DNA from: a virus
Virus record (IMG/VR): IMGVR_UViG_3300042691_030122
Span: 1 to 46,467 of that record
DNA: 46,467 nt
Reading direction: 5' to 3' (one strand)
Position numbers and translations under genes: made by a program. Each line of letters opens with the position of its first letter. Position 1 is the first letter of the stretch. The notes under the pieces are model-generated. The model searched no databases, was not told the origin of the DNA, and saw nothing but the letters and a program-made list of their open reading frames with translations. This document shows positions 5,501 through 46,390 of the stretch, one piece after another.

Positions 5501-5924
5501 AAAGACTTTTGTCTATTGCGTATGAAACCCCAGGATTAGCAAAAGAAAAAGTACTCCAAATAGAACCGCCATCAGCAGATAGAGCTGATTGAAATTCTGT
5601 TCCTGCTCTAGAAAAAATTTCCAATCTATTATAATTGTATGTATTAGTTATATTATTTTTTATAGAATAATCGTTTAGATAGATTCCTTTAAATATTTCA
5701 CTATTATTTTGCCCCTCATCAAACAAAATCAATTCATTTCCGTTTGGATCAACAAGACCAGCCAGCGGACCTTCTCCAATAAGATCCTGAACATAGTATT
5801 TAGTTGTTGATTCTAATATTCCACCATTTGTATTTGATGCAAACGGAGCAAAAGAATGTTTTGCATTTAAAAAATTTTGCAGTTGAGTTCCAAATTGAGA
5901 TAATGAATCAGAATTTTGTTTCAT
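2562..5924 (-). CDS. Tail tip attachment protein, lambda J-like
   Basis: This 1120-residue protein is the likely central tail-tip hub that contacts the host and opens the tail. The N-terminus has the J-family signature: a segment around residues 40-60 (VQDLIGEGPLAGLVDPNG) followed by an IFKGIYLNDYSI strand and an RAGTEFQ motif. The middle has long beta-rich domains. A typical J segment lies near residues 770-800 (RRYGYVEKEIIGFG, then QAKRIGQWFLVT), followed by LLLPGNVISITDE. Its start overlaps the stop of the second I-like gene by four bases (ATGA), as in lambda, where J follows I. The C-terminal part has fibronectin-like strands and no obvious receptor-binding module; that role may have passed to the collagen-like gene downstream. 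Only the exact domain borders are uncertain. Confidence 0.9.
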   Translation of the reverse strand: MKQNSDSLSQFGTQLQNFLNAKHSFAPFASNTNGGILESTTKYYVQDLIGEGPLAGLVDPNGNELILFDEGQNNSEIFKGIYLNDYSIKNNITNTYNYNRLEIFSRAGTEFQSALSADGGSIWSTFSFANPGVSYAIDKSLYGLPEAANVTTFSSSQTHASKLRIVRGGLPIVSNPSQSTVSATQKQPFFTNSTLAPKFQQNSNSNPANQQSAQQSTEAFNISAFSDFNFQSCFGAYHEIKDVNTDFLILSLKIQALYIFDKKGNTRPNSVNFGIKIGYKLREDYACYIVHRVTGIASSPYEFNLFFDVSDFDFSLGPYIKVFNLDQKVGATENKVGKVIGVSSVTEITSLKFRYPNSCYFLSVFDARGFTQPPNRQFDFKLLKIKVPENYDAESKTYDGFWNGEFDSVLRWTDNPAWILYDLITNYRYGLGKFSFQESLADKWSMYKIAKYCDELVSTENVSKYKPVKINNIFKNKITVQSIPSDKAVDFKAYFPIGSKIDLVNLAFISKDEDGTPTTEYKSFKKIVVAVTPASDNKSATIQLVNEFGIHRICSLFPSVKEFLKTNTKYENRYTQSLNALITAVSSPANVSSSANVGSANNVALTEFISYIKTQSCFSEEELKTHINNTGTAASEFKGFLPLLEPRFRANISLSNETDVINLLNNIASVFKGLVYWSNNFVNFDNDRPKSPSYFFNNSNVKDGIFQYSSSSKDTRYTVAKITYSDENNNFKDQTVYVEDQINIRRYGYVEKEIIGFGVTSKSQAKRIGQWFLVTNQIEQELVSFTAGPEALLLLPGNVISITDEIKVSGRKGGRVVSVSNEDIVLDDRYDFIGANDTIAFIIPNSSISPSVLNKESEESKNGISDSRINELSSTYIYKFTVQSVGLDGNFRTKIVLNINNLTDQEKSLIQTIGASTLWIYDSKYESALAYSKNYRIVSIKEKTQTEFEIAAAEYEVTKFGFVENNKNLAPSILFSNEQINSTDIVPTNILASSDTPIDVIKEGFVSDTSRNFNINDKYDYLIPSFDYSDNSYNTISNVVEIFNSAIYTFATQRSVFSNEIKAQIKGLVIEYVLNSKKIAYVWRDGDSNSTTIALPQTEMDLSFESLRVYIIGKNDNFLI

Positions 5925-10174: not shown

Positions 10175-13006
10175 TTAAGAAGATTTTAATGGATATAAAG
10201 ATCCTTGAACCGCAAAAATATTAGACAATACATATGGGTTAGAAGATTTATTTAATTCTGAATTTTTAACGTATTCTAAATTAGCTGTAAAATATCCAGT
10301 TCCAAAAGAACCGCCTGGACTTCCATAAACAAGACCAGACGGAATTATGGTTGGATCAAAAAAGTCATAAAAAATCGAAGAACCAAGAGTGGAAGCTTTA
10401 TCTGCATTTATAGTTATATTATTACTTGCGTTAAAAGAAGTGTACATCTTATCTATTTTTGATTTTGTATAAGATGTTTTTGTAAATGGATCAAAAATTT
10501 GCAATGACGACAATTCTTCTCGTTTAAAAGTATCTTTTAAAGTTGCAAATTTATTATTAGAAAAATTAACAACGTCTCTTAAAGTTATATTGTCGCCAGC
10601 ACCAGCACCAGCAACAATAAAAGACGAATTATCTAAATTTAAATTTAATTTTCCGCTACAATTAACATATAACGCATTTTTTCCGGTTTTAACAGCATCT
10701 GATTCTGTAGATAATTTACTTGTGCTTCCTCCTTTTCCATAAATAGCGGAATTATTATAAAGATTTATTGTTAATCCGCTTGGCATGAAAGAATAATTAC
10801 CAGTTATTATGCAGGTTCCTGTTGAATATATATCGTAATTATCAAAAACATCATTTGGACCTATAAAAACATTATTTAAATTCAAAACAATTCCAGAGTA
10901 TAAATTAAATTTATCTGCAAAAGTGCAATTATTTTTTATATAATCATAAACATCAAAGTAATCAAAATTTTGACTTGTTATCGTTCTGCTTTCTATTTTC
11001 TTAGTTAATTTTAAATTTGGAGGCAATGATCCTATTTGATTTAGTATTCCAGTCGTCAATCCTGTAAATACAGCTTCGTATCCAGAAACCGGATCGGATG
11101 AAGGCCAAGAATTTATTTCTGCAACTCCGCTTGCAAAAACAGCTTGCCCTGTAACATCGGTATATGTATTATTTACTCCGCTTATTGTAACATAATAATC
11201 TGTATTAAAATCTAAATCAGTAAATAACATTTCATAAGTTGTTATTCCTGGAGTTCCTATATCATATAGATAATTAGAAGTATTTAAAGGTATTGATATA
11301 CTTTTTCCAGTTACTACTGAACTTGGAGAAAAACCACTATTTGTAGATATTCTTCCAGAAAAACCAGTAAAAAAATAACCCGATTGCGGCAATGTCCATC
11401 TCACTAACATTGCCACTTCATCCTCATATAAAACTGGAGAAGCTACGCAGTTTTGAACTCCAGATAGAAAATCATAAGGAGCAGAAGATCCATCAGCCGC
11501 GCTAGATCCTGTATAATATATCTTAAATAAACTTCCCACTATTCCAAAATTGTCTTGCGACTGATCAACATTAAAATATCCTTCTATTTGAGACGATGCG
11601 GTTTTATTTGTTGGGAGTTGATATATAATATTGAAATAACCAGTGCTGCCAGCCATCACATTTATAGTCGCATCTTCTTTTGGATCATGAAGAAATCTAT
11701 CAATATCTGAACTATTAGATGGAACATTATCAAGTATTGTATAAGATACTGGATATCTTTTTCCGCTGTTTACTATACCATATTCTTTATTTATTTGAAA
11801 ACCTTTTGGCAAAAAGCCAAAATTAAAACCAGTAGGAATTAAAACAGTAATAAAATCAAAATTTCGATCAAAATTAAATTTAGATTCAATGAATCTTGCG
11901 CTAATAGAATTATTATCTAAAAAGTTATATGTATGACTCCATTCTGGACAATAAAAAGATCTTGTTCCAGTAAAAAAAGTATGCATATCATAATCAAAAA
12001 GATCTATTCCATTATGATTTTCTAAGAAATGTAAAATGGCTTTGGCTTCTTTGTCGGAACGGTTATTGAAGGTTAATGAAAAATCAAAAAAGTTAGGATT
12101 TATACCATCATTTTGATACAAATAAAAATTACCTAAATCATTTTTATAACTATTAGAATTAAATGATAATTGTTGAGCGTTATCTGGTTGAAAATAAAAT
12201 TTCTGTGTCCAGACTGCATTTGATTCTATTGGATTCGCTCCTTTTGTAGACTCATCTCCAGTATAATAATAAAAACCGGCACTAGAAGATTGATTGTTTA
12301 AAAACACATAATCATTCTTAGAGTATTCTACATTTTTATCATAATCACTATTTCCATATGGGATTAATTTTTCTTTCCATTGCGTAATAGAAACAAATGG
12401 AGATTCAAGCGTCAAAGAAACTGAATTCAGATCCGCCATTTCAAAATTATTATCTATTGTTTTTAAATAGAATGGCCTGACTTTTGAATGCGGAGGAAAC
12501 AATGCCATTTGCACTGGTAATAAACCCTGACCATCAGACTGAGAAGGTTTAACGAAAGAGGCTTGATAAAAATGATTTAATGCTTTGGCTTCGTTATCTG
12601 TAATATTATTAAACTGTAACTTAGCATCAACTTGAACAACATTTTCGCTTTTTCCAATGATTACCGTATAATCATCTTGGAATTTATTTTCATAATAGTT
12701 TGCTTTAAAACTAACCGTTGATCCATAAGTTGGAACAAAGAAAAATTGATTAGTCCAATAATAACCACTATTGTTGCCATCTGGACGATTGTAGAAAAAA
12801 TTTTCTCCAGATGGTAAATCTGTTTTGCAATAAAAATATCCTGTAGTAAATGGAGCCGCGACAACTCTAGTATTGCCTTTATCATCAACATATGTACCGG
12901 GATTTATTCCTGTATAATATACAACATCAAATTCATTAAAAGTCACTCCCGTTTGATAAAACGGAATATTTGGCATTAATATTCTATAGTCGTTTATAGC
13001 TTTCAT
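10175..13006 (-). CDS. Minor tail protein with two lambda M-like repeats
   Basis: In this 943-residue protein the N-terminal 400 residues hold a duplication. Each half has a sugar-binding-like strand pattern (FDVVYYTG... or YSKNDYVFL..., then W-T-x-K/Q-F-x-F) followed by the minor-tail M pattern: FNNITDNEAKALNHF in the first copy and FNNRSDKEAKAILHF in the second. The second copy ends with SFYCPEWSHTYN, a typical M-family closing motif. The rest is beta-rich, with fibronectin-like strands and a Gly/Asn-rich helix-like region near the end. It starts with a four-base ATGA overlap. It sits where lambda has M, between the tape measure and L. It is a likely tail-tip ring protein, and the two M units may lie in adjacent rings. 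Confidence 0.75.
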   Translation of the reverse strand: MKAINDYRILMPNIPFYQTGVTFNEFDVVYYTGINPGTYVDDKGNTRVVAAPFTTGYFYCKTDLPSGENFFYNRPDGNNSGYYWTNQFFFVPTYGSTVSFKANYYENKFQDDYTVIIGKSENVVQVDAKLQFNNITDNEAKALNHFYQASFVKPSQSDGQGLLPVQMALFPPHSKVRPFYLKTIDNNFEMADLNSVSLTLESPFVSITQWKEKLIPYGNSDYDKNVEYSKNDYVFLNNQSSSAGFYYYTGDESTKGANPIESNAVWTQKFYFQPDNAQQLSFNSNSYKNDLGNFYLYQNDGINPNFFDFSLTFNNRSDKEAKAILHFLENHNGIDLFDYDMHTFFTGTRSFYCPEWSHTYNFLDNNSISARFIESKFNFDRNFDFITVLIPTGFNFGFLPKGFQINKEYGIVNSGKRYPVSYTILDNVPSNSSDIDRFLHDPKEDATINVMAGSTGYFNIIYQLPTNKTASSQIEGYFNVDQSQDNFGIVGSLFKIYYTGSSAADGSSAPYDFLSGVQNCVASPVLYEDEVAMLVRWTLPQSGYFFTGFSGRISTNSGFSPSSVVTGKSISIPLNTSNYLYDIGTPGITTYEMLFTDLDFNTDYYVTISGVNNTYTDVTGQAVFASGVAEINSWPSSDPVSGYEAVFTGLTTGILNQIGSLPPNLKLTKKIESRTITSQNFDYFDVYDYIKNNCTFADKFNLYSGIVLNLNNVFIGPNDVFDNYDIYSTGTCIITGNYSFMPSGLTINLYNNSAIYGKGGSTSKLSTESDAVKTGKNALYVNCSGKLNLNLDNSSFIVAGAGAGDNITLRDVVNFSNNKFATLKDTFKREELSSLQIFDPFTKTSYTKSKIDKMYTSFNASNNITINADKASTLGSSIFYDFFDPTIIPSGLVYGSPGGSFGTGYFTANLEYVKNSELNKSSNPYVLSNIFAVQGSLYPLKSS

Positions 13007-20700: not shown

Positions 20701-23700
20701 GAAGTTGAATAGCTAAAGCATCTGCATTGATACCAGTAACACTATGTTTTTTAAGCAGATCAGACAATTTGTCTTGATCAAAAGCTACACTATAAAATTG
20801 ATTTTTAAATTCTGTCGCAAATTCTTCAAAATTAACACCTAATTGTTTTTGTATATTTTCTAAATCAGCAAAAAGTTGAGTATTTTGAGTAACTATCTTT
20901 TTAAAATTAGCTTCACCAGCAGCGCCAGTATTAGCTATCTGTTCTTCCATTGTTACATAACTACTAGGAATACCACCTGGACCATAGCTTTGAGTTTGAG
21001 TAAATTTAGTTACTGCTTTTTTCTCTGTTCTTAAAATTTGTTTTTTACCCAAATCTTCTATTGACAACTCTTTTTTAGCCATTCTATTTGCCGATTCAGT
21101 AACTCTCTTAGCGCCAGCCATTCTTTCCATTTCATAAGCTTTTATAGCTTCTGTCATTTTTTCAACATCAGTACCAGCTTCTCTAAATTTTTCATCTAGA
21201 CCTGTTTCTGATATTTTAACAAAATATTCTTCAAGTTTTTTATTCGCGTCAAAAGCTTCCAAAGAATTAGGATCTAAACTTCCTAAAGCTTTGACAGTAT
21301 CGATAATTCCTTTACCAGCTTCTACTGTTGATTGCGTTTGACTTCTATAGTCTTCAGCTTTCTTTTGTAAATCTTCAAGATTATCAGAAGCTCCGATTGC
21401 CGCTGTTGTAAGACCCACAAGCGCCCCTCCTGCTGCTCCAATCAACGGCCCAAATGGAGCCAATGGTCCAAGAAGAGGCGCTAAAACAGTTCCTAAAGAA
21501 GAGCCAGTACTGAGATTGGTTAAAGCAGAACTAGTTGCAGAAGCTGCAAATCTTTCGTTTACAGACATTTCTGATCTATCACGACCTCTTGTAATCGCGC
21601 TTTCAAGTTGACCTGCAATTAATGGAACCCCTAAACTAAAACCAATATTATTACCAAGACCTGCAAGACCACTAGTTAAAAAACCATTATTTCTTTGATT
21701 TCTCAATCCCATAGCGGCCATATTACGAACTACAGTTCCTCTTCCAGGTAATAATGGAGCATTCGCTCTTTGATTTATTGGAGCATTTTGTTGAGGCATT
21801 GGACCGATAAAAGCTTGTGCGGCTTGTCTTTCTGCATTTGCATGAGCAACAACTTCTGCTTTTAATTTTTTAAATTCTTGACCAGTTAAACCTAAAGTTT
21901 TCTCTAAATTATCTAACTGTGTTTTAATTTGACCGTTTGTAACGGTTAAAATATCAATAGATTTTAAATAATTATTTATTGCTTGTTCAACTTTAGTATT
22001 TCCTGCGTATCCTTTTCCTGTTAATGTTATAGGATTAGGAGCAGCAAAGTTAGGTATATTTCCCGCCGCCATTAAACCAGTAGCTTTCTGTCCAGCCATT
22101 GAATCGCTCAAAGCTTTATTCAATCCACCATGATCAGCTATTGCTGAAGCGAAATTTGGTTGACTAGTATTTCTAACAAATGGAAAAGGTCCAGTTGTAG
22201 TGTCAAGAATAGCTTTATTTCCGCTCAATCCTTCTTCAAGATTCATTACCGCTTGTTGATATGCAAAATTAGGAATAAATCCATTAGCAAAAGATTTAAG
22301 AGTTAAAATTGCTGGATCAACCATCTTCAAGATTTTATCTTGATTTTTTATCAAATCTTGTAATGAAGTTGCCTTGATTATAGTTTGACCATAATCTCCA
22401 GAGATAAATGTTTCACCGCCAAGACCAATTCTTTTTGCAATCTGAGGATATTTAGCTTTTAATCTTGATAATGGATCATTAGCTTTTCTAGGATCAACAG
22501 GTCTATCTTGAGCTAAAGCGTATCCAAAAACTCCACCTTTTCCTTTGATAGAATTTGCAATATCTCCATATAAACCAGCAGCGTTACCTTTTCCTTTTGT
22601 TGTTAAATCTTCAATAGAAACGATATCTGAAGCTTTAATTTTTCTACCTAAAGTTTTACTAAAAAATTCAAGATCGATAGGATCTGTTTTTCCTAAAGTA
22701 GCAGTTCCAAAAGAAGATTTAAATTTAGCAAAATGAGGAATAAATCCTTCGCTTAATCCTTTATTAGCTCTCCAAGAATTTGTTATTTCTGATTCGTGAC
22801 CGGCGATTTTATCAGCATAAAAGCTTATTAATTTATTGGTAATTATTTTAGCTTTATTTACTCCAAGTCTTTTTAATAAACCTTTGGTAAGAAAATCAGT
22901 ACCTTTATACATGTTTGAATAAACGCGAGTACGCTTACCCAAAGTAGAACCGGGATTTTGAGCTTCAAAATCTTGTTCTTTCTTAAGTATGTCTTTTGTT
23001 TTCCAATTTTCTTCTGTTCCGCCTTTTATTTCTATACCACCAATTTTTCCAGTACCGCTTCTAATCAAAGCATCCATTGGAGCTGTATTTGCCGCTGTAA
23101 ATGGATCAAATTTTACAGGATTTCCAAATTTATCTCTTACAGGAAAACCAGCTTCTTCCGAAGCTAATACTGCTCCACCTTGAGTTACTGCATTTAAAAT
23201 TTCACGAACATATTCTTCGTATAAATAACTAAACAATGGAGAGTTACCAGTCTTAAGATTTTTGTTATTTCCATGACTTAAGAAATTCAATTCTCTGAAC
23301 ATTTCTGAACCGGGAATCAATTTTCTTTCACCAGTATATGGATTGTAATCCATATTTTGATGAGTATTTTTTAAATCAATATCATTAAACCAAGGAAATC
23401 TATCGAACCATTCTTTATTAGCAAAAGCTTTCAACCAAGGAAGTCTTGTGACTTTTGGTGATAAACCTGTAGCAAAATTAGGAATGAATCCCTTACTAAA
23501 ACCTCTTTTTAATTCAGGATGGCCTTCTGGAACATATAATTCAATAGGTAAGTTTAAACGAATATTATCTTGTTTTTTATTTTTAAAATTTCCAGGAGGT
23601 GTAACGCCAATAGCTTTTGCAACCAAATTTCCTAAATTAAATTCTCCCGCTTTAGCTTCTCCTCCTAAAAATTTTGTAACATCAGATGGAAGAAAATCAA

Positions 23701-26104
23701 ATCTATCATTAGAAACTTTAGATCTGGTTAATTTTTCTAATTCGCTAATTCTTTGCTCAAAAATTTCACCTGTTAATAATGTAACTAATCCTCTTTTTTG
23801 ATCAGCAAATGATACAGTTCCCTTTCCTGTGTTTTTTGTCAATCTTTCGACTTGCGTATCATTATTTAAATTTGGCAAATTTCTATTCTTAAACCATAAA
23901 TCAAAATCAAAATCTGCTGATTTTCCAGTAGGAATATATTTTTCAATATCGCTTTTTGATCCAAACATAGCAATATCTTCAGCTTCTTTACGCATTTGTT
24001 CATTCGTTTTGCCTTTTACTTCTTTAATTTTATAATAAATACCTTTTTTCCCACCAATAGTATCTGTTATAAAATTAGAACCTATCATTGTTCTAAGGTT
24101 AGCAACAGAACCAACTTCTTTTTCTTCGCTTTTGCTTAATGGCAAACTTCTTAAATCACCTTTAAAACCGGTTCCTAGAATATAATCAGTTTTCTTAATA
24201 CTCGCAAAATTTGGAATAAATCCATCAGCAGCGTATGGATCAACTCCTGTTTGATTTATAGATTTCATTCTATGCAAACGACCAGCTTTTGATCCTTCTG
24301 GAGGATTTATAAAAGGTTGAGCAAAACCGGGAACATATTTTACTTTTTCTGCACTATTCATCACTCCACCAACTGGAGCTTGAATGACTTTTCCAGCTTT
24401 ATAACCGCCAATCGCCGCACCCATTACTTCAGCATTTTGTACGTCTCTTGGTATATATCCACCAGCTTTAATCTTTCCAACTTGCAATCCAGCTTGACCA
24501 ACATTTATATTACGAGGAGCCAAAGCGGCGGCTAACTGTTTTGCTGTGGCTAACTGTTGTTGATACTCAGCAGTTTGAGCTTGCGCTAAATTAAATAAAG
24601 TTTGCGCTTGAGCGGTTAGATTTCCTTGTTGACCTTGTAAAGCTAAAGAAACTTGAGATTGGCTTTGTATAATCTTAAGAACTGCTTCTTCAATATTTTT
24701 TCTCTTCTGAGTTTCTGTTGTAATTCCGAATAGTGCTGGCAAAGCTGTACTAGCATAACTAAAAGTATTAGTTATAACTTTTCCAATAACCGCAACTGCT
24801 CCAACTAAACCGGGACCACTTAAAATATTCTTAATACCAAGAAGTAATCCATTAGCAAATTGAGATCCAATTCCTTCTCCTTCTAAAAGATCATTTATAT
24901 ATGTTATCGCATCATTAAAAGGACTAACTAAACTTTTAAAAACAGGCTCGAAAGTGACTTTACCAATATTATTACTTAATTGTTGAAGATTTGTGCCTGT
25001 CTGAGAAATTAAAGCCGCCAAAGTAAGATTTAGTTTTGCATTAGCTTGTTCAGCTTCATTTGTAGCTTTTGCTCCATATTCTAAAGCTTTATTATAAACA
25101 CCTTGCTCATTATTAAGATCACTAATAATGGATTTCAAGATGTTAACCTGATAAACACCAGCAACTTGTTCTGAAAGACTTGCTTTTTGAGCAGTGCTTA
25201 AATCTTTATAAGCTCCAGCAAAATTCTGAAGAATTTGAATTGCTGGTAAAACATTTCCTTCTATATCTCTGACAGCTATATTAAAGTTTTCTAACTGATC
25301 TAATGTTTCAGTTCTTTGCAAACGAGTAAAAATTGTTTTTAAAGCGTTACCGATTACCGCGCCACCGCGAGCGGTTTTTTCTTGAGCAGAAGCGACTAAC
25401 GCATTCAATTGATCGAAGTTGACTCCAGCTTCTTTTGCCGCTTGACCAGTTCTAGAAACGGCTGAAGTTAAGTCATCCGCTGAAACTGCAAATTGCTGTT
25501 CTACGGCAACAATTTTATTTAAAATATCATTTGTAGTTAATCCAGCATCTTTAAATGCATTTGTCGCAGCAGTTAAATCTTCTACAGCTTGAGTTGCAGA
25601 AACGCCAGTAAGACGAACCAATGTCAAAGCATCGGCAGTTTTCTTCAAAGTATCTTCTGCACTTAAACCTTGTCTTGAGAATTCCAAACTAGCTTTCGCT
25701 GCATCTTGGAAAGAAGCGGCGGTTAATTTAGAAACAGAAAAAAGCTCTGAAGAAAACTTTTGTAATTTATCTGTACTTAATCCTAAAACACGATTAATAT
25801 CCGAAAGACTTTTTTCGACTTCTATTGTTACGTCAGCTATTTCTTTAAATGCTTTACCAACGCCTCCAATAACAGCGGTAGAAGCTCCGAATGCAAGAAC
25901 GCGAGCATTAGAAGCGGCAAGGGCAGATTCAAATTCTTTTAGATTACCAGTGATTCTTCCTAGTGGCTGGCTGAAGCTTCGCGTATTAACTTGTAAATTT
26001 AATTGATTTTGAGCCGCATATCTTGCATTAAATGCGGCAACGCCTTGAGCGATGCTTTGAGCTAAAGCTGTTTGACTAGCTTGAACACTAATTTGTACTG
26101 CCAT
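17738..26104 (-). CDS. Tail tape measure protein with inserted nuclease-like segments
   Basis: This 2788-residue protein sets tail length and is ejected with the DNA. Residues 40-340 are the TP901-type tape-measure domain (RVLAFGASTAVIGGVGKAF, ASLEFSRQGLSAEDTLK). Hydrophobic segments lie near residues 425-460, 1535-1565 and 2595-2620, and long coiled coils fill about 1700-2450. The C-terminal repeats with GEYVLNRKTVEALGG and GEYIVNSKAVRRYGVGG are a common tape-measure ending. Five motifs of the form G-(F/N)-I-P-(N/H)-F-A at residues 628, 872, 1120, 1275 and 1348 mark off segments. The segments 628-872 and 872-1120 each look like a PD-(D/E)XK fold: D...GGEAKAG near 801-817 and MDALI...GGIEIKGG near 1010-1028. 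It starts behind a GTGTAA motif. By the usual 0.15 nm per residue rule the tail could reach about 0.4 micrometre. Confidence 0.93.
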   Translation of the reverse strand: MAVQISVQASQTALAQSIAQGVAAFNARYAAQNQLNLQVNTRSFSQPLGRITGNLKEFESALAASNARVLAFGASTAVIGGVGKAFKEIADVTIEVEKSLSDINRVLGLSTDKLQKFSSELFSVSKLTAASFQDAAKASLEFSRQGLSAEDTLKKTADALTLVRLTGVSATQAVEDLTAATNAFKDAGLTTNDILNKIVAVEQQFAVSADDLTSAVSRTGQAAKEAGVNFDQLNALVASAQEKTARGGAVIGNALKTIFTRLQRTETLDQLENFNIAVRDIEGNVLPAIQILQNFAGAYKDLSTAQKASLSEQVAGVYQVNILKSIISDLNNEQGVYNKALEYGAKATNEAEQANAKLNLTLAALISQTGTNLQQLSNNIGKVTFEPVFKSLVSPFNDAITYINDLLEGEGIGSQFANGLLLGIKNILSGPGLVGAVAVIGKVITNTFSYASTALPALFGITTETQKRKNIEEAVLKIIQSQSQVSLALQGQQGNLTAQAQTLFNLAQAQTAEYQQQLATAKQLAAALAPRNINVGQAGLQVGKIKAGGYIPRDVQNAEVMGAAIGGYKAGKVIQAPVGGVMNSAEKVKYVPGFAQPFINPPEGSKAGRLHRMKSINQTGVDPYAADGFIPNFASIKKTDYILGTGFKGDLRSLPLSKSEEKEVGSVANLRTMIGSNFITDTIGGKKGIYYKIKEVKGKTNEQMRKEAEDIAMFGSKSDIEKYIPTGKSADFDFDLWFKNRNLPNLNNDTQVERLTKNTGKGTVSFADQKRGLVTLLTGEIFEQRISELEKLTRSKVSNDRFDFLPSDVTKFLGGEAKAGEFNLGNLVAKAIGVTPPGNFKNKKQDNIRLNLPIELYVPEGHPELKRGFSKGFIPNFATGLSPKVTRLPWLKAFANKEWFDRFPWFNDIDLKNTHQNMDYNPYTGERKLIPGSEMFRELNFLSHGNNKNLKTGNSPLFSYLYEEYVREILNAVTQGGAVLASEEAGFPVRDKFGNPVKFDPFTAANTAPMDALIRSGTGKIGGIEIKGGTEENWKTKDILKKEQDFEAQNPGSTLGKRTRVYSNMYKGTDFLTKGLLKRLGVNKAKIITNKLISFYADKIAGHESEITNSWRANKGLSEGFIPHFAKFKSSFGTATLGKTDPIDLEFFSKTLGRKIKASDIVSIEDLTTKGKGNAAGLYGDIANSIKGKGGVFGYALAQDRPVDPRKANDPLSRLKAKYPQIAKRIGLGGETFISGDYGQTIIKATSLQDLIKNQDKILKMVDPAILTLKSFANGFIPNFAYQQAVMNLEEGLSGNKAILDTTTGPFPFVRNTSQPNFASAIADHGGLNKALSDSMAGQKATGLMAAGNIPNFAAPNPITLTGKGYAGNTKVEQAINNYLKSIDILTVTNGQIKTQLDNLEKTLGLTGQEFKKLKAEVVAHANAERQAAQAFIGPMPQQNAPINQRANAPLLPGRGTVVRNMAAMGLRNQRNNGFLTSGLAGLGNNIGFSLGVPLIAGQLESAITRGRDRSEMSVNERFAASATSSALTNLSTGSSLGTVLAPLLGPLAPFGPLIGAAGGALVGLTTAAIGASDNLEDLQKKAEDYRSQTQSTVEAGKGIIDTVKALGSLDPNSLEAFDANKKLEEYFVKISETGLDEKFREAGTDVEKMTEAIKAYEMERMAGAKRVTESANRMAKKELSIEDLGKKQILRTEKKAVTKFTQTQSYGPGGIPSSYVTMEEQIANTGAAGEANFKKIVTQNTQLFADLENIQKQLGVNFEEFATEFKNQFYSVAFDQDKLSDLLKKHSVTGINADALAIQLQEVARDNGDYGRFIVNNFDEIIKGLVSGKYKTAVEAAKAQKEIAQRQEGVRQKLFQYSQAIEQSLAATAMQIENYDFEKSFGKLNLEKSSQLINDGLAAISKNIDDSFKNQFNFLMEQTSNLQQQRMLEFDAATFQQDLGLQKQSRRLGRSKDLISVLQGALEETAAGNIEEVVTKFQRTGTVDISGISGLKKGEESKRAIEAFNLSTRISEQEAANKEDNARKTFMAEQAYAKKSLDLKNETGKLDYDLSQRRYKNTLREKELVDSITTQNKQIQIKGQAEIERGRIATESPYFMLGRGEYDISDEKRRREVAATRKGIELEARQAIADAEIARIQREVLADNTDATLANTTAIENLIMSMTKEGADKFASKNEQIKRLDEQIIPDAEMTQIDEDIKSYKKAAAYRAVRGDDSSIYNSEITQLENKKAKQEELRKQKANILSDKEYASNKASSEIYNRQLEMQVARQELQKRKVQGGAFSGMDLSTVKDPIAYLQDKTSQEKKNLELLEAEQRLMQKRQEDGLLNAEGEKKLAGMAEKIVAQKKLISEIDTANLAIQTKLANETEREKQAAEDRAKRGKFGTGVSKALGEIRTEVQTFEERLGGTTVMAFRDGLVGAMDAAINKTDDLGSALLEVAGGFLKTIQNAMFQQIANQMVSGIGFAAGKQKGGVIRAQAGMYISDAGRTGDVNPALLEDGEYVLNRKTVEALGGPEEIDKLNFGMFPRFGTGARRFANGGNTGSIQAAASMNEPFAELSEFGKENNPEYQKYLERIREEQAKKDAKKAQRSALIRSLIGTALTTGIMMGVGSIAKGMTGPKVAGAKPSSTQLSQLQKAGVTINESGLPNMQKGGVLHFANGGYLPYGNRLNDSIPALLSGGEYIVNSKAVRRYGVGGLNKINSGVARFEDGGLVGDATKTNANTESMSSNNVSVNITVNATDGKAQNEQSSADGADEKNRALGNKIKEVVLQVITNEQRTGGLLDSTKKK
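22043..24223 (-). repeat. GFIPNFA-type motif repeats within the tape measure gene
   Basis: Five short coding repeats of the form G-x-I-P-(N/H)-F-A begin at 24223, 23491, 22747, 22282 and 22063 on the minus strand, with a weaker SQPNFA between the last two. Each follows a small polar pair (DG, KG, EG, NG, AG). The spacings are 244, 248, 155 and 73 residues. They mark the borders of segments with no tape-measure character. They may be linkers, docking strands or processing sites; the sequence alone does not say which. Confidence 0.8.
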
Positions 26105-34293: not shown

Positions 34294-35252
34294 CGGATAT
34301 TTACGCAGACGTTATTCTTTTTGATAGCATTGGCTCTCCATATGATGGAAATACCATGCATCAATCAGGCATGGGCGGCAGTGAATTTCAATCCATTCTA
34401 CTTCTTGAAGAGTTAGCTAAAGAAGGATATAAAACTATTTGTTTAAATAATTCTAACAAAGAATCTTTTGTAAATGGAGTATTATACGCTCCAAATAAAC
34501 TGGTTAACGATTATAAATTTAAATGCAAAAATTTAATAATTCATAGGTATAGCAACATTCCTAAAATTGCCCACAAAAAAGCATTCATGTGGGCAACAGA
34601 TTTGAATGGCGTACATAATCTAAAATTTTATAAACTATTTGAAGAAAAGAAATTGACATTAGTAACACTAAGTCAATTCCATAATGATCTGTTTCCAAAA
34701 TCTTGGGATAAGCATGTTATTTATTTTATGATACCTGATTGGGTATACGAGTATTCTATACCAGAAAAGAAAAATAATTTCGTATATGCCAGTAGTCTAA
34801 TGAAAGGATATAATTCTACATTGCCATTGTGGAAATATCTTAAAGATGAAAAAATACTCAGTCAAACTGACATGTTGAACGTTTGTTTGCCGGGATATGA
34901 TAATCCAAATCAAGATATAAGCGACGAAGGTTATGGAATTAATTATTTAGGAACTTTAAAGTTCAAAGAAGTTATTGAACTCATGGCAAAATGTCGCGGT
35001 ATGTTTTATGTAAACACGATGCCTGAGACTTTTGGCATAAGTGTTGTCTTAGCCGACATATTAAAAACCACTCCTTTTGTTTATGGCATAAATAATTTGG
35101 GCAGTTTACCTGAATTAGTAAATAATAAAAATCTTACAACTGATATGCAAGAATTTATAAATATGTTTAAAAATTATTCAGTTTCAGATTCTGATCCTAG
35201 AAACTTTCGCCCAAAGATGGTTATAAAATGGTGGAAGAAAGTGCTTGCTTAA
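34290..35252 (+). CDS. GT-B type glycosyltransferase, GT4-like
   Basis: This 320-residue protein has the GT4 pattern. SGMGGSEFQSILLLEELA near residues 26-43 gives the Gly-Gly-x-Glu loop and helix, NFVYASSLMKGYN marks the start of the C-terminal domain, and INYLGTLKFKEVIELM followed by YVNTMPETFGISVVLADIL gives the donor-binding E-x7-E type motif. It likely adds a sugar after the GT-A enzyme. It is co-translated with that gene. Its stop codon shares TTAA (35249-35252) with the stop of the convergent FkbM methyltransferase. The acceptor is unknown. Confidence 0.85.
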   Translation: MTDIYADVILFDSIGSPYDGNTMHQSGMGGSEFQSILLLEELAKEGYKTICLNNSNKESFVNGVLYAPNKLVNDYKFKCKNLIIHRYSNIPKIAHKKAFMWATDLNGVHNLKFYKLFEEKKLTLVTLSQFHNDLFPKSWDKHVIYFMIPDWVYEYSIPEKKNNFVYASSLMKGYNSTLPLWKYLKDEKILSQTDMLNVCLPGYDNPNQDISDEGYGINYLGTLKFKEVIELMAKCRGMFYVNTMPETFGISVVLADILKTTPFVYGINNLGSLPELVNNKNLTTDMQEFINMFKNYSVSDSDPRNFRPKMVIKWWKKVLA

Positions 35253-35878
35253 GGTTTAACGAATAAAAGACTTTCAGCAATTAATTCATTATCTTTATTT
35301 ACTACGGTTTCCACAGGCATAATATAATCAAATCCTAGATCAAACATTTTCTTTAATATCTGTTCTTTAGTACAGCCGCCTTCATTATAATTATTAAAAG
35401 AGACTTCAGTAATAACTGCTTTTGCATTTTTAAAAGTATTTATGCCTCCTTCTATGATGTCAAGCTCGCTACCTTGAGTATCAATCTTTATCAAATCATA
35501 AATAGGTTGCACACAATCATCTAATTTATAAATCGGCAACTCTTCAACAATAAGATTTTCATCATTGTATGTTTCTGAATTTTCTTTGTAGATAGAATTA
35601 CCAGAACAAATTGGACTCCATTTTGTTTTATAAAACTTAGTTGTGCCGTTGATTTTGCCAAGCAATTTTATTTGATAATCGTATCCTAATTTTTGATATA
35701 GTTTTTCGCATTCACTATTTCCTTCAAATAATAATATGTTTGCGACAGGCCAGACTTGGCGCATAATGTCTGCCGTTTGGCAAACACTTGCACCAATGTC
35801 TAATATATTTTTAGGATAAAAACCTTTATCTCTCAGCAAAAAACAAATTTGAGAGTAATAGTCATAAGAATAACTCAT
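35249..35878 (-). CDS. FkbM-family methyltransferase
   Basis: This 209-residue protein is a SAM-dependent O-methyltransferase. Motif I is NILDIGASVC near residues 19-28, the ribose-binding acidic residue follows in LLFEGN, and LIKIDTQGSELDIIEGG is the signature of the FkbM family. Members methylate sugar hydroxyls of polysaccharides, glycoproteins and natural products, so a sugar of the cassette's glycan is a likely target. It is convergent with the glycosyltransferases and is transcribed after the tail-fibre chaperone, 20 bases downstream of it. It is probably late expressed with the fibres. Confidence 0.87.
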   Translation of the reverse strand: MSYSYDYYSQICFLLRDKGFYPKNILDIGASVCQTADIMRQVWPVANILLFEGNSECEKLYQKLGYDYQIKLLGKINGTTKFYKTKWSPICSGNSIYKENSETYNDENLIVEELPIYKLDDCVQPIYDLIKIDTQGSELDIIEGGINTFKNAKAVITEVSFNNYNEGGCTKEQILKKMFDLGFDYIMPVETVVNKDNELIAESLLFVKP

Positions 35879-37998: not shown

Positions 37999-40900
37999 TT
38001 ATAGATTTTGACCTACGATAATTGCATATATATTTGTGCCACCATCATAAGTAACAAATTGATAAATATCGCGTTTAGCATTTGTGCTTGTGATTGTTGG
38101 CGCAGTGCCTCCCGGCCACTTAATAGCGGCTGGCCATGTTATTGAATAAGCAGTACCATTACCAACAGTAACGATTGTCCACATATGAACAATTGTACTT
38201 GCTTGAATATTCGATAATGTCAAAGTTGTTATACTTGCTGACATTGTTAATTCTGTAACATTAAAATTAGTATCAATTGTTGTAGAAGCAGCAGAAGTAA
38301 CAGTTGCTCTTTCACCAAATGTATTTCTTGTTCTTACTAAATTTAAAATACTTGTACTAGCAGGATCTACATAATATGCAGTATTAGCACTATCTCTAAA
38401 TTGTGTAGCATCGACAACACCAGCAAGCGTTAGATTACCACTCATATCTAACTGCAATCTATTAGCTGATGCGCTCCATCCACCAATACGTAATACGTTG
38501 TCAGAATCAAGACCCATGTTAACAGCATAATTTCCAGCACGATGAAAACTCATGAATGCTGCATTTGTGCCTGTAGAGTAAACTTGCAAAGGAGGGCTAC
38601 TCAAACTGCCAGATGTTGTTCCTAGATTACTTTGGAAATATTTTTCTCCGGTAATATTTTGATTTGTATTAGTATATACTCCAGCAGATACTGTTCCAGC
38701 ATTACCAGAAATATTACCAGTTATAGTATTAACAACCGTCAAACCAAGTAAATTACTTATACCTCCAGCGTTAATATAATAAGTTGTATTATCAGAATCG
38801 TAATATATAGGAGATCTTAAATCTACAGAGTTAGTAGCAGAAACATCAGATCTCAAAAAGCTTGCCGAATTAATACCGTCTAATAAATCAGCGTCAAGAC
38901 CTGAACCAGCACCATCATTATTATTATTCCAGAATCTATTCCAAGTTCCAGCAGTACCATTTGTTGTTGTTCTTGTATAAATATCACCAAGATTAGAACC
39001 TGTCATTTTTACAGCAAGTGTATTACTATAATAAGTGACAGGATTACCATGACCCATACGAATCGCATTGTACCATTCGGTATCTGGATTCAAAGTTGTA
39101 TTACCAGATGTTTGCCAATATTGTAATCTACTATCTCCAACATTTCCTGTATCTGAAGTTACGCAACCGGCATTTGTCGCGGTTGTTGCTGTAGCTGAAT
39201 TTCCACTACAAGATGAAGCTGTCGTCGCTGTAGCTGAATTGCCTGTACAAGATGCTGAACTACCTGTGATACTTATTCCCCAAGTTCCACTTGCGCCCGT
39301 TCCAGTTAATGTTGGACCTACTCTTAATGTTGCTGAAACTATATTAGAATACGCTGCAAGAGAATTAGTATTCGTCATTGTCCAACCAGTGCCATATTCA
39401 GCATCTGAGCTATTATATCCAAACCATAAATCTCTAGCAACAATTACTGGATAACTTGAACTATAATGAGTAAGAATAAAAACAGTATTACCAGATGCAT
39501 TAGCGCCAACTTGAATCGTTGGTTGTACATTTGGATTTGAACTTGTAAATTCAAAGCCAATAAATCCTCCATTTGATGTTGGATTCCAATAACCAGCAAT
39601 TTCTATTGTAGTTTTTGCATTTGTGCTACTATAATTTTCAAACCATTTTATAGTAAATCCACCCATCTGATAATTACCTTGTGGAATACTGGTTTCTATT
39701 ACTGTGTATGTATTAGTGCTACCATTAGCAGAACCAGCAACTAAAACTCCAGAAAAAGTTTTAACTATATTCGATCCGCTTGGTGGACCAGAATAAACAG
39801 AAGCTCCAAAATTTCTTCTTAATTGTTGATAATTTACTCTATTCAGTACGCTTGTACTGGCAGCATCAACATAGTAGCTTGTATCATTACTATCATAAAA
39901 TATCTGCGCTCTCATTGATGATCCATCTGCCAATGCATAGTCTCCTCCAACAACTCTTAATCTCCAACTACCATCTTGATTCAAAAAGCCTACGTCATTA
40001 TTAGTATCTGCATAAAAATAACCGCGAACAGTACCGTTATGCCCACCAGTTCTTAATCTTATTCCTTGTGCGCCAGCAGAGCTTGCAACATTCCAATAAT
40101 TAGCACTATCAGAATAAAAATGTTGACCAGTAGATTCATTATATAAACCATTTCCACTACCATTATTTCTGAACCAACCACCAGTATAATATTGTGCTGC
40201 TGTTATATTACCGGCTGCAGTAATAGCATTCAAGTTACTTGTGCTGGCGGGATCACAATAATATACGGTATTATTACTATCATAATAAATTGGAGTTCTC
40301 ATGTCAGTAGCACATCTAATGCTACTAGAAATTGCTGCTGCATATGTACCATTTAGTAAGATCAACGCTCCGTGATCATTTAAATTAGCAGCTACTCCAC
40401 CAGCGTTAGGATGGGACCAAGCGATACCATACAAAGTGCCAACTCCAGTACCGTCAGCAGCTAATTTATAAGCATTACCCATTGCAAATACTCCTTGATA
40501 TCTATTTGCAGAATATAAACCAACTACACTGTTACCATAGTTATCATCAATAAAAAAATCACCATTTGCTCTTGTAGCTTTTGTGGCTAATGTTGTTGTT
40601 GCAGAGTTTCCACTTATACTTCCAGTGATTGTATTTGCTACGGTTAAACCTACTAGATTACTTGTGCTTGCAGGATCTAAATAATAAGCTGTATTATTAC
40701 TATCATAAAAGATTGTAGATCTAGCATCAGTGAATATAGAAATTGCGCTATTAGTTGTAAAATTTAAATATGTACCATCCCAATACATTCCTCTTCTTGT
40801 AGTCCAATCATTTGAGCTACTTAATGACCAAAAACCATTATTTTCACCAGCAATATAACAACCATCCACTAAAATACCCATTTGACCATTATTTGGCAAG

Positions 40901-43065
40901 TCTCTTCCAAATACAATTTCACCACCATTTACTGTCATACCATTCCAACGAGTACCAGGAAGATTTACTCCATACCATGATCCACCTATTGGTAATGTAT
41001 AATTTGTATAGTTATATGAACTTAAGATTGGGTTTCCATTTAATTTCGCATTATTTAATGTGCTAATTTCTAAATCGCTATCCGCTGTAAAATCACTAAT
41101 ATTTGTTGCGCTTGGAGCAGTATTTATATAAGAATAATTAATTGCAGGACTACTATTTGTAGTATAATTTCTATTAGTTTTTATTACTACATCGACTATG
41201 CCATAATTTCTGACATCAACATATACAGGTAAATAATAACTATCACCGCTTATTTGAACTTGAGTGCCAATTCTGCATTGAAAATTATTTGTTCCAGCTC
41301 CTCTCCACTCAACCAATTTTATACCAGAATTGCTAACATATCCATACCAAATATTATAAACCTTTTTCAATCCTTGGCTCCAATATTTTTCATGTAATTC
41401 AACTTCAAATGTTCCAACAGTGTTCCAATCATTATAATCTATACCAAGACGAGCAATTTCAAATGTTCTAGCTTGAGTACCACTAGCTGACAAATCATTA
41501 ATAGTAAATATTTTATAATTACCAACAAACTGACTTGCTTTCAAATAAGAAGATATTGTTGATGATGCTGGATCAACATAATATGTTGTATCATTATTAT
41601 CGTAAAAAATTTGCCCACGAACTGATGATCCTTGCCAAATAAAATTACCAGAACTATCCCAAACACCATCAAGATTCCAAGAACCGCTAGTGCTTCTTCT
41701 ATAAAAATTTATAGCACTGCTTGCATGATGCAACATATACCACCAAGTTGATGATGTGCTTTGGAATCCAATACTTGGATTATTTCCTGCCATATTGATA
41801 CCGCCGCCCCAAACACTGGCGCTGCTATCATACCAAGTTCTATTTGTTTTTAATTCTAGTATATTTGATGTGCTTGCTGGATCTGTATAGTATGTTGTAT
41901 CATTATAATCATAAAAAATTGGTGCGCGAAGCGAAGTTCTACTGAAAGTAAAACCTCCACCATAATTCATGTCAATGTTACCACCACCACTATATTGCAA
42001 ATGTAAGTTACCATTTGGAGTCCAAATTTGATCGTAATTTATATTTAATCTATCCCCAGCAGCTGTTCCGCCTACATAGATATTACCAACAGTTTCAGAT
42101 GATCCACGAACCCATAAAGCCACCAACCTTGATGTACCAGCAGGATCTATATAATATGTGGTATCATTGCTATCATAAAATATTGGAGATCTAAAACTAT
42201 AATCACTTTGTACATATCCAGCAGAATATGCAACCATATTTGTGATTTGTGTACCACCAGCTTTTGTCCAAAAATGTAAATTACCTGTAGCCCAAGCATT
42301 TGCAGTTCCAGCGGTTTTTTGCGCTGCTAAACCTGCAATACTTACTGTATTACCTGCACCAACAGCTTCGCGGCTACCCATCGACAACTTTGTCCATGTA
42401 TTGTTTGTACCATTTAAATTATAAATGAACAAACCTACAGGAGCTTGATCGATTGCGCCAGTTGCAGAACTATCTTTTCTTATTATTAATGGTGGAGATT
42501 GTAGATAGCTACTACTAGCATCAACATAAGAATCATACATTTGTACATTGTTGCTGCTAGTTAATCCACCGATACCAATAGAAGAAGTTAATGAAAAGCT
42601 CGCAGGATCAACATAATATGTGCTATCATTAGAATCATAAAATATAGTTCCATCAACTCGTCCTCCAGAATACACACCAGTTGGAGCGTATATATTATAA
42701 GCAGAATTTGTTGTTGACGTTCCAAATCCCCAACAATTATTTCCATAACTATAATATGAAGCCCATCTTCCACCAGTTTCAAAATATACGCCACCATTTG
42801 CAGATCCATCGAACATCAAATGAGGAGCATTACCTCCAGCGTTAAAATGTATGCCTCTCCAACCGTTTCTAACACCTCTAACATCAAGACTTCCATAAGA
42901 AGAACTTGTATTTCCAATTATCTGAGCAGTATTTGCTGCAAATTGCAATATATTTATTACCGATGTACTCGCTGCATCAATATAATAATTTGTGTCATTG
43001 CTATCATAAAAGATTGGTGATCTTATATCTGCGCCACCTAAAATTTGGTTTAAACGTAAAGACAT
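37999..43065 (-). CDS. Giant modular tail fibre protein A
   Basis: This 1688-residue fibre has ten copies of the motif I-F-Y-D-S-N-(D/N)-T-x-Y-Y-x-D-P-A-S-T-S-x-L, separated by differing beta-rich modules of 60-250 residues. Near residue 1400 there is a pyocin-knob-like module (WYNAIRMGHGNPVTY, then WNRFWNNN) and DADLLDGINSASFLR. After that comes FHRAGNYAVNMGLDSDNVLRIGG, a segment common in marine phage fibres. The C-terminus is a small beta domain (VHMWTIVTVGNGTAYSITWP) with no S74 autoprotease or coiled coil. It probably forms a trimer. The variety of modules between repeats suggests exchange by recombination, which would alter host range or glycan binding. Confidence 0.88.
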   Translation of the reverse strand: MSLRLNQILGGADIRSPIFYDSNDTNYYIDAASTSVINILQFAANTAQIIGNTSSSYGSLDVRGVRNGWRGIHFNAGGNAPHLMFDGSANGGVYFETGGRWASYYSYGNNCWGFGTSTTNSAYNIYAPTGVYSGGRVDGTIFYDSNDSTYYVDPASFSLTSSIGIGGLTSSNNVQMYDSYVDASSSYLQSPPLIIRKDSSATGAIDQAPVGLFIYNLNGTNNTWTKLSMGSREAVGAGNTVSIAGLAAQKTAGTANAWATGNLHFWTKAGGTQITNMVAYSAGYVQSDYSFRSPIFYDSNDTTYYIDPAGTSRLVALWVRGSSETVGNIYVGGTAAGDRLNINYDQIWTPNGNLHLQYSGGGNIDMNYGGGFTFSRTSLRAPIFYDYNDTTYYTDPASTSNILELKTNRTWYDSSASVWGGGINMAGNNPSIGFQSTSSTWWYMLHHASSAINFYRRSTSGSWNLDGVWDSSGNFIWQGSSVRGQIFYDNNDTTYYVDPASSTISSYLKASQFVGNYKIFTINDLSASGTQARTFEIARLGIDYNDWNTVGTFEVELHEKYWSQGLKKVYNIWYGYVSNSGIKLVEWRGAGTNNFQCRIGTQVQISGDSYYLPVYVDVRNYGIVDVVIKTNRNYTTNSSPAINYSYINTAPSATNISDFTADSDLEISTLNNAKLNGNPILSSYNYTNYTLPIGGSWYGVNLPGTRWNGMTVNGGEIVFGRDLPNNGQMGILVDGCYIAGENNGFWSLSSSNDWTTRRGMYWDGTYLNFTTNSAISIFTDARSTIFYDSNNTAYYLDPASTSNLVGLTVANTITGSISGNSATTTLATKATRANGDFFIDDNYGNSVVGLYSANRYQGVFAMGNAYKLAADGTGVGTLYGIAWSHPNAGGVAANLNDHGALILLNGTYAAAISSSIRCATDMRTPIYYDSNNTVYYCDPASTSNLNAITAAGNITAAQYYTGGWFRNNGSGNGLYNESTGQHFYSDSANYWNVASSAGAQGIRLRTGGHNGTVRGYFYADTNNDVGFLNQDGSWRLRVVGGDYALADGSSMRAQIFYDSNDTSYYVDAASTSVLNRVNYQQLRRNFGASVYSGPPSGSNIVKTFSGVLVAGSANGSTNTYTVIETSIPQGNYQMGGFTIKWFENYSSTNAKTTIEIAGYWNPTSNGGFIGFEFTSSNPNVQPTIQVGANASGNTVFILTHYSSSYPVIVARDLWFGYNSSDAEYGTGWTMTNTNSLAAYSNIVSATLRVGPTLTGTGASGTWGISITGSSASCTGNSATATTASSCSGNSATATTATNAGCVTSDTGNVGDSRLQYWQTSGNTTLNPDTEWYNAIRMGHGNPVTYYSNTLAVKMTGSNLGDIYTRTTTNGTAGTWNRFWNNNNDGAGSGLDADLLDGINSASFLRSDVSATNSVDLRSPIYYDSDNTTYYINAGGISNLLGLTVVNTITGNISGNAGTVSAGVYTNTNQNITGEKYFQSNLGTTSGSLSSPPLQVYSTGTNAAFMSFHRAGNYAVNMGLDSDNVLRIGGWSASANRLQLDMSGNLTLAGVVDATQFRDSANTAYYVDPASTSILNLVRTRNTFGERATVTSAASTTIDTNFNVTELTMSASITTLTLSNIQASTIVHMWTIVTVGNGTAYSITWPAAIKWPGGTAPTITSTNAKRDIYQFVTYDGGTNIYAIIVGQNL
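38345..43023 (-). repeat. Ten coding repeats of the fibre motif in fibre A
   Basis: Ten copies of a roughly 60-base unit lie approximately at 42961-43023, 42600-42655, 42121-42185, 41875-41930, 41570-41625, 40668-40725, 40245-40305, 39848-39910, 38758-38820 and 38345-38403. Protein identity among copies is high (Y-D-S-N-x-T-x-Y-Y-x-D-P-A-S-T-S) and parts of the DNA are nearly identical. Distances between copies vary from about 300 to 1000 bases. Confidence 0.85.
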
Positions 43066-46000: not shown

Positions 46001-46390
46001 TCCGCCCAATAATCCTCCAGCACTAGTTTCAAAATATAAACCCCAGTTATTATTTCCAGGAGTTATCCAAAAATTGTTTGTGTCAGTAACTTGTAAAAAA
46101 GCGTAATTAGTGACAGCAGAAGAAACTAAACCGGCAAATGATGGTGTATTACCAGTTCCTACGTTTTGATTAATTGTATACGCAGTAATATTAGCCGCAT
46201 TACCATCAATACTTACTCCTGTCAAAGTTTGTGCGCCGCTTGCTCTATTAAAAACATTTTGTGTTGTACCAATATAATAAGTAGAAGTAGTGGATATACC
46301 ATAATTGCCGATATTGGCGGCAGTTATAATGGCTGATGTTGTTTGACCATCTGCACTTCTTACTGTTGTATCGTTTCTTAAAATAGCCAT
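43082..46390 (-). CDS. Giant modular tail fibre protein B
   Basis: This 1102-residue fibre is related to the neighbouring fibre A by five copies of the same I-F-Y-D motif. It also has three repeats of V-G-I-G-(T/N)-T-S-P-S-x-x-L, seen as NVGIGTTSPSQKLHVVG, and GNAATATTATN-type repeats near residue 990. The C-terminal domain (GCYMISVYVDNYAVNGGHYQ, then LHKSGHASNGAYINLRT) resembles tips of fibres in other phages. It starts after a small A/T gap; the previous gene ends with a coiled coil. It is 16 bases upstream of fibre A and probably co-transcribed. It may be a second fibre or the distal half of one. Confidence 0.87.
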   Translation of the reverse strand: MAILRNDTTVRSADGQTTSAIITAANIGNYGISTTSTYYIGTTQNVFNRASGAQTLTGVSIDGNAANITAYTINQNVGTGNTPSFAGLVSSAVTNYAFLQVTDTNNFWITPGNNNWGLYFETSAGGLLGGTGDSNRLGFVGAGNARFYVDLNNGNGWFGGSLTANTDSRAPIFYDTNNTAYYCDPASVSNLNAVTLNRSGSDGYLTLPGSVTVSNVSAAEMVIRGLSQLRFSNSTSWDWNAWAGLRYDNATTTIYLGGPAATGIFTQNATPPTVTVSFVGTNNVTSDSNFKAPIFYDSANTAYYLDPANTGTSLLVAGNVGIGNTSPSAKLHVLGSSYTTASAANNNVRFEGGGGNGLGFGTIDATSTYASWIQSGYVPNFATATYALLLNPLGGNVGIGTTSPSYILDANSTNDNAIRIRNGAGGANNGLALSVGSGSPWLDIIEGVEFRIKGNTYANIGTWNSGNNTKLLINSSGNVGIGTTSPSQKLHVVGTGFASTDFRAPIFYDSDNTVYYIDAASTSNLNALTVAGGNATIYRDLIINGGASGNFGNRIIVQGTATTYTLQDSNARPTVYLTGQYPVVTLNHTVTNNTNHGPTIQFTFNGLTTGGSTSRQVVIGPDGTGSRLDFGFSGGGYGTNSDYNPHNGIAGYSGITAMRLFSNGLLVGNTGAYPNQITSTSYALDVRGTGYSDTDFRAPIFYDSANTNFYCDPASTSKFNEIWTTDNGNNTTAPRWDTSFYVMQSQHWYSHTGTSTMYVGESGDFVYIRGYSTADGSFRSPIFYDSNNTSYYIDAASTSSLNALTMAGTITGALDATVSFTGGVCTAASYNYILNGANDTGNKLVIFVNGSTRTADGGVNALTIRNDGGAFVLGSGSYLTSILGSSVTINGNAALTSASTLTAGNLSGTIPSGVLGNSTLYVGTTAIALNRGSASQTLTGISIDGNAATATTATNATQLGGVAAANYVRNDVDGSNSTALFRLTTITKSLTITTSWLDTGIVGADLSTGCYMISVYVDNYAVNGGHYQETYTGMMSWFSTGTNSTDYDEIVLHKSGHASNGAYINLRTIRQLSGSTNLKLQIISSVSTNGASNYVFKFRRLI
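43985..45890 (-). repeat. Five coding repeats of the fibre motif in fibre B
   Basis: Copies lie approximately at 45825-45890, 45460-45515, 44825-44885, 44240-44300 and 43985-44050. They have the same unit as in fibre A, with A-P-I-F-Y-D at the front and D-P-A-S or D-A-A-S at the back. Confidence 0.85.

Follow-up and report, generated by a model that had tools for sequence, protein, structure and literature searches.

The tape measure protein (TMP) class occupies the phage tail tube and exits ahead of the DNA, and in known phages the length of the tape measure sets that of the tail. Peptidase or murein hydrolase domains are built into some tape measures, where their target at entry is the cell wall, and in polymorphic toxins such as CdiA a constant motif, VENN, stands before a variable toxin. 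The polyvalent proteins of phages and conjugative elements, which are thought to be injected with the DNA, unite GNAT, ART, kinase, peptidase and ParB-like DNase in one polypeptide, and a metallopeptidase domain is pervasive in them, if not universal (Iyer et al. 2017, PMC5512222). In the contractile injection systems of Streptomyces davawensis, the TMP-related effector Tme is an endonuclease whose activity has been shown experimentally (PMC11126660).

The locus described here lies in a 46.5-kb virus record (the window, by which we mean the whole stretch of DNA analysed), where an ORF of 2788 residues runs along the minus strand from 26104 to 17738. A Pfam search matches its residues 124–316 to PhageMin_Tail (PF10145, E=5.7e-25), nine PHROG tape measure families match the protein and its neighbours are tail genes, all of which bears out the preliminary description of this ORF as a tape measure. 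The window also encodes a GpJ-like tip protein (2562–5924; Phage-tail_3, E=8e-22) and a minor tail protein (10175–13006). An FkbM-type methyltransferase (PF05050, E=2.7e-11) at 35249–35878 adjoins a tail fibre assembly protein, near two very large tail fibre-like ORFs (37999–43065 and 43082–46390).

Two segments of the TMP had been described as PD-(D/E)XK nuclease-like, and both, with their named motifs, are located as first stated. The segment ends given there (residues 628, 872 and 1120) are the exact starts of copies of a motif, GFIPNFA or GFIPHFA, that went unmentioned. Judged from the sequence, each nuclease-like module is one cassette of an array in which A-[AS]-x-GFIPNFA serves as punctuation and which is set between the conserved N-terminal part of the TMP (∼630 residues) and a conserved closing module. 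All features of the array are on the minus strand. The cargo begins at motif copy 1 (GFIPNFA, residues 628–634, 24203–24223), which opens cassette 1 (module 1; residues 628–871, 23492–24223), a PD-(D/E)XK-like unit with predicted catalytic residues E783, D803, E816 and K818. Motif copy 2 (GFIPNFA, residues 872–878, 23471–23491) opens cassette 2 (module 2; residues 872–1119, 22748–23491), a PD-(D/E)XK-like unit of the core-slot family with predicted catalytic residues E963, D1011, E1025 and K1027. Cassette 3 (residues 1120–1274, 22283–22747), opened by motif copy 3 (GFIPHFA, residues 1120–1126, 22727–22747), is a singleton with no Pfam match, no family match and no relative among the 249 loci compared. 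Motif copy 4 (GFIPNFA, residues 1275–1281, 22262–22282) leads into the conserved terminal module (residues 1275–1347, 22064–22282), whose family closes most arrays, and motif copy 5 (GNIPNFA, residues 1348–1354) follows at 22043–22063. Ahead of the first cassette, at 24224–24472 (about residues 545–627, the outer limit being approximate), lies a pre-array module with MNSAEKVKYVPGF and DPYAADG, which is itself conserved as a family of 31 loci (f2) with the pattern yNsaE.vk.fpG.....P. The core of the closing module, RE..AG.P.S.I......L....NP.GL.V.NT.DEP, is strongly conserved in most phages, and this module could bear on processing or docking.

In module 1, GEIFEQRI begins at residue 779, RFDFLP at 801 and GGEAKAG at 814, giving D803-x12-E816-x-K818; in module 2, YLYEEYVREIL begins at residue 960, MDALI at 1010 and GGIEIKGG at 1022, giving D1011-x13-E1025-x-K1027. 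We rejected the bare motif as proof of a nuclease, the loose form E...D-x(9-22)-[DE]-x-K turning up in 85% of shuffles of module 1 and in 66% of those of module 2, as well as in most other 245-residue windows of the TMP. With a stricter form the shares fall to 3% and 1.4%, respectively. The motifs are therefore counted as significant because they are conserved in homologues, not from motif statistics. In an alignment of 26 distinct module 2 sequences, 28–87% identical to that of the window, E92, D140 and K156 (module numbering; TMP E963, D1011 and K1027) are invariant, and position 154 (TMP E1025) is Asp or Glu throughout. Module 1 is rarer than module 2. Profile search recovered relatives from few lineages, and a single-sequence search was without success; the window, two close lineages and locus L028 retain E, D, E and K. 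The seven-member family of module 1, in which G, E, D, E and K are invariant, includes the different first cassette carried by the nearest relatives of the window. The Glu of the N-terminal helix (GxxFE or LYEEY) is invariant in both modules, and a helix is predicted there, in low-confidence models in both cases.

A related family (family 1, 117 modules) has a mean column identity of 29%, with only five columns conserved at 95% or above: G, E, D, [DE] and K. The full catalytic set is found in 109 of these modules, with an E-to-D spacing of 18–37 and a D-to-K spacing mostly of 21–29, while eight lack one catalytic residue in the alignment. Profile comparison places the catalytic residues of the module 1 family and family 1 in register, as a weak match (26% probability, E=7e-4), and relates the module 1 family to family 6 at 55% (families 6 and 8 likewise at 55%); non-nuclease control cassettes give at most 6%. 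No profile link to the other nuclease-like families was found for module 2 in this comparison. What identifies module 2 is consequently residue conservation and spacing, together with a weak helix-strand-strand pattern.

None of Pfam, NCBIfam, PHROGs or PDB sequence profiles named a PD-(D/E)XK nuclease for either module, the PDB profiles giving matches at chance level only; the superfamily is very divergent. The AlphaFold models are poor, with a mean pLDDT of 52 for 26 sequences and 44 for 4 sequences. A helix(Glu)-strand(Asp)-strand(Glu-x-Lys)-helix order is visible in these low-confidence models of module 2 and partly in those of module 1, and is only compatible with a PD-(D/E)XK core. In a VIA-align fold search, module 2 had no match at Z≥2 and module 1 only matches at Z 2.0–2.9, SPARTA/TIR-APAZ chains among them, all of which were set aside as not meaningful. 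Of the PD-(D/E)XK reading in the preliminary description, the part concerning residue order, spacing and invariance in homologues thus stands, having come through its own proposed refutation, a lack of conservation, in the 26 module 2 sequences and in the seven module 1 sequences and L028; as to the fold, models of this quality are at most compatible with the reading. From conservation, both modules are likely to be PD-(D/E)XK-type nucleases. We hold the nuclease active sites to be highly probable, and place the fold assignment of module 2 below that.

The array extends well beyond the window. A degenerate 20-base pattern for GFIPNFA picked out at least 119 stretches in viral contigs, about ten of them in short ORFs and chance-like, the rest in long ORFs and mostly with several motifs; a profile of the closing module picked out 157 stretches, on contigs partly shared with those of the pattern search. 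With duplicates removed, these give at least 173 ORFs, 579 modules and 98 families, each a lower bound. Of the ORFs listed with at least 400 residues before the first motif, 127 of 129 match an HMM grown from the N-terminus of the window TMP, and most long ORFs have their first motif close to residue 540 or 630. In the 615 strict copies of the motif, for which the search pattern itself prescribes G, P and N, F or Y stands at +1 and I or V at +2, preceded by A at −3 in 41% and by A or S at −2 in 85%.

At least 106 arrays are complete, with one to seven cassettes each, drawn from at least 71 cassette families in at least 56 architectures. A cassette of family 1, or of family 2 (the family of module 2), is present in 97 of the 106 complete arrays listed, usually in first or second position, and in 36 of the 106 there is a pair of PD-(D/E)XK-like cassettes, in most cases with a variable member ahead of a core one. 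Paired nuclease-like inserts, which had been expected to be unusual, are hence a recurrent arrangement in this group. In other tape measures, homologous modules occupy places between the same motifs, with the catalytic residues conserved; modules 1 and 2 themselves recur as neighbours, in the arrangement of the window, in a further two phages that are more diverged (L009/L164 and L134/L163).

Among the other cassettes, three exceed their curated Pfam cut-offs: SNase (38.3 bits against 21), GNAT (33.3 against 20.7) and HIGH_NTase1_ass (33.3 against 26.7). Visual inspection alone pointed to kinase-like, HAD-like, ART-like, zincin-like and P-loop cassettes, and the GHKL-ATPase and ParB-like cassettes fall below the Pfam cut-off. 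The staphylococcal-nuclease domain (PF00565, E=2e-9) forms a tape measure cassette at 8760–9362 of L106, and in two arrays its family fills the position that precedes the core nuclease. At 5042–6769 of L031, a cassette of 576 residues resembles GHKL (HSP90/gyrase-like) ATPases, below the Pfam cut-off. The ORF at 2–15244 of L218, from a 208.9-kb virus record, reaches 5081 residues with 13 motif copies, and by eye its cassettes include a zincin-like HExxH unit, a helix-turn-helix and a HipA-like kinase.

Close relatives of the window differ in cargo in a manner that locates the exchange. In five of them (L004–L008) the first 634 TMP residues are 93% identical to those of the window and module 2 is retained at 85–87% identity, with another PD-(D/E)XK-like module and a HAD-like module, bounded by motif copies, in place of module 1, and two other modules, likewise between motif copies, after module 2. 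In nucleotide sequence the window shares 85% identity with L005 as far as TMP nucleotide 1901, within the motif at 1882–1902, where homology to L004 stops as well. Homology to L004 and L005 resumes at nucleotide 2611, beside the motif at 2614–2634, and stops at 3375–3377, at the motif at 3358–3378; homology to L005 resumes again at 3822, next to the motif at 3823–3843. L004 and L005 are themselves 94% identical over ∼20 kb save for one block (L004 10098–10930), flanked by motifs at 10081 and 10930 and containing a 48-bp island of 98% identity around a motif. The breakpoints at motifs, together with the L004/L005 block, lead us to conclude that cassettes have been exchanged at or beside motif DNA, and recently. 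On these nucleotide comparisons, cassettes swap between related phages through recombination at or next to the motif-coding DNA. A 2023 survey reported sequence-level signs of tape measure mosaicism with no recent case confirmed; by alignment, the L004/L005 swap is such a case.

The closing module had no match in 50,697 phage records (INPHARED), and when the whole window TMP was compared with phage records, the matches listed were all confined to its N-terminal part. A profile search placed the closing module in two metagenome-assembled bacterial contigs, one labelled Flavobacteriales, where a first scan had found none. A scan of 296 genomes from the phylum to which the Flavobacteriales belong, run without a positive control, gave no member of family 1. 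For some members of the group we would guess at a Bacteroidota host.

The explanation we prefer, and consider reasonably probable, is that both segments are PD-(D/E)XK-type nuclease cassettes in a modular, exchangeable array of cargo delivered by the TMP. Members of this protein class precede the DNA out of the tail, and cassettes built into the TMP would accordingly enter the host envelope or cytoplasm together with the genome or earlier; such delivery is plausible. The nuclease cassettes, going by their active sites, would then cut nucleic acid early in infection, while the remaining cassettes (GNAT, SNase and nucleotidyltransferase, and by eye kinase-, HAD-, ART- and zincin-like) would modify other host targets. 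The presence of a core-slot nuclease in 97 of the 106 listed arrays points to a task common to them, the variable unit often found ahead of it to a target that can change, and the swappable, motif-bounded blocks suggest a refillable cartridge of host-delivered proteins. The motif itself may serve for cleavage or for docking within the tube, or may be a neutral joint kept alike by recombination. A role in the protein is favoured because the motif is conserved at the protein level across diverged phages and in an A-[AS]-x context. We offer only tentatively the idea that GFIPNFA is a processing or docking signal, at each copy of which the ejected TMP would be cut, freeing separate effectors, including the near-universal PD-(D/E)XK nuclease, before the genome arrives, and that the array would be reloaded through recombination at motif DNA.

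Injecting a nuclease that nearly all arrays carry would call for self-protection. DNA methylases of the common families exceeded their cut-off in only one of 26 related virus records, many of them incomplete, a scarcity that counts against our preferred explanation. Activity only after tail release or motif cleavage, a structure-specific or RNA substrate, or another base modification are possible ways round this. The same scarcity means that restriction-style attack on the host with protection by methylation is not obvious, and so lends weight to the alternative that the nuclease cassettes serve the DNA of the phage itself, in trimming, nicking or end processing at entry, packaging or replication. 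The near-constant place of family 1 or 2 across the arrays likewise looks more like housekeeping than a changeable weapon. We nevertheless think this unlikely, since a variable second nuclease slot alongside non-nuclease enzyme cassettes is the pattern of effectors and the sequence holds no pointer to phage DNA ends; the suggested protection of those ends finds no support. It is harder still to see the cassettes as dead spacers, there to fix the length of the tail or take up room in the tube, their conserved residues being leftovers of an old enzyme. Tape measure length does determine tail length in known phages, and ORF length varies with cargo, but each swap between close relatives with different cargo lengths would then alter the tail, and the only conserved columns in 117 modules at 29% mean identity are the catalytic ones; we regard this as very improbable.

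The exchange breakpoints at motif DNA could also be read as the work of selfish, homing-type cassettes, whose nuclease would cut the motif DNA of TMP genes lacking the cassette so that the motif serves as a landing site, and nuclease genes are described as marking recombination boundaries in phages in an excerpt of PMC10448857. Against this, the cassettes are continuous and in frame within the ORF, with no self-splicing or intein domain found; most cassette families are non-nucleases, two different nucleases recur in a fixed order and, even among highly diverged tape measures, the core family is almost fixed, so that we give homing little credence. About as doubtful, in our estimation, is the proposal of a different enzyme fold for the E, D and [DE]xK sets, under which the modules would be something other than nucleases. 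The lack of any profile or fold match to a known PD-(D/E)XK protein is what speaks for it, whereas the order, spacing and full invariance of the residues fit the PD-(D/E)XK superfamily, and the predicted helix and strands, in low-confidence models, place them as expected.

In open-access PMC papers we found neither GFIPNFA nor any report of motif-punctuated cargo in tape measures, and none of this text describes phage TMPs whose enzyme cassettes stand in tandem, are punctuated by a motif and recombine, a PD-(D/E)XK-like unit being nearly universal among them. The motif-punctuated, swappable array is more important, and more surprising, than the pair of nucleases it contains. If the explanation holds, the tape measure, whose known parts are to fix tail length and to channel DNA, would in many uncultured phages, a large group, also be a cartridge that delivers proteins and can be reloaded. 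Its weapons or helpers would act early, be changeable and have been missed by standard annotation, and GFIPNFA would be a natural motif associated with loading proteins into tails.

The closest concept is that of the polyvalent proteins, which like the TMP arrays hold several unrelated activities in one long polypeptide (PMC5512222, a text in which the terms 'tape measure' and 'REase' do not appear). At least two disparate domains, by which such proteins are recognised, are found in the group as a whole (SNase, GNAT, HIGH_NTase1_ass and the nuclease-like cassettes), the window alone having two nuclease-like cassettes and one of no known family. A Pfam search detected no peptidase domain in the window TMP, and HExxH-like cassettes were seen by eye in few relatives, such as L218. 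The differences are that the carrier here is the TMP itself, that the units are delimited by a motif and swapped at it, and that PD-(D/E)XK-like cassettes dominate. The best reading is of an injected multi-effector array akin to a polyvalent protein, but built into the TMP with a conserved punctuation motif.

The arrays share with polymorphic toxins such as CdiA a short conserved motif at the junction of effector exchange, and differ in that the cassettes are in tandem, each following a motif, within a virion protein that has no terminal toxin position. Enzymes built into tape measures are also carried by SPbeta-like records among the phage TMP matches; in contrast to the peptidase and murein hydrolase tape measures, the cassettes described here point to nucleic acid and protein modification. 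Sle1-type TMP-related effectors similarly combine a tape-measure-like carrier with an exchangeable functional domain, in actinobacterial nanomachines, and the abstract describing them mentions no motif-punctuated array (PMC13277306). Tme, too, places nuclease cargo on a tape measure relative (PMC11126660), but as one C-terminal EndA-like (DRGH) nuclease of a bacterial injection system, whereas in the phage TMPs the cassettes are internal, tandem and PD-(D/E)XK-like, those of the window having E, D and ExK sets in place of a C-terminal DRGH. If our explanation is true, the arrays would be a phage counterpart to the TMP-related effectors of contractile injection systems.
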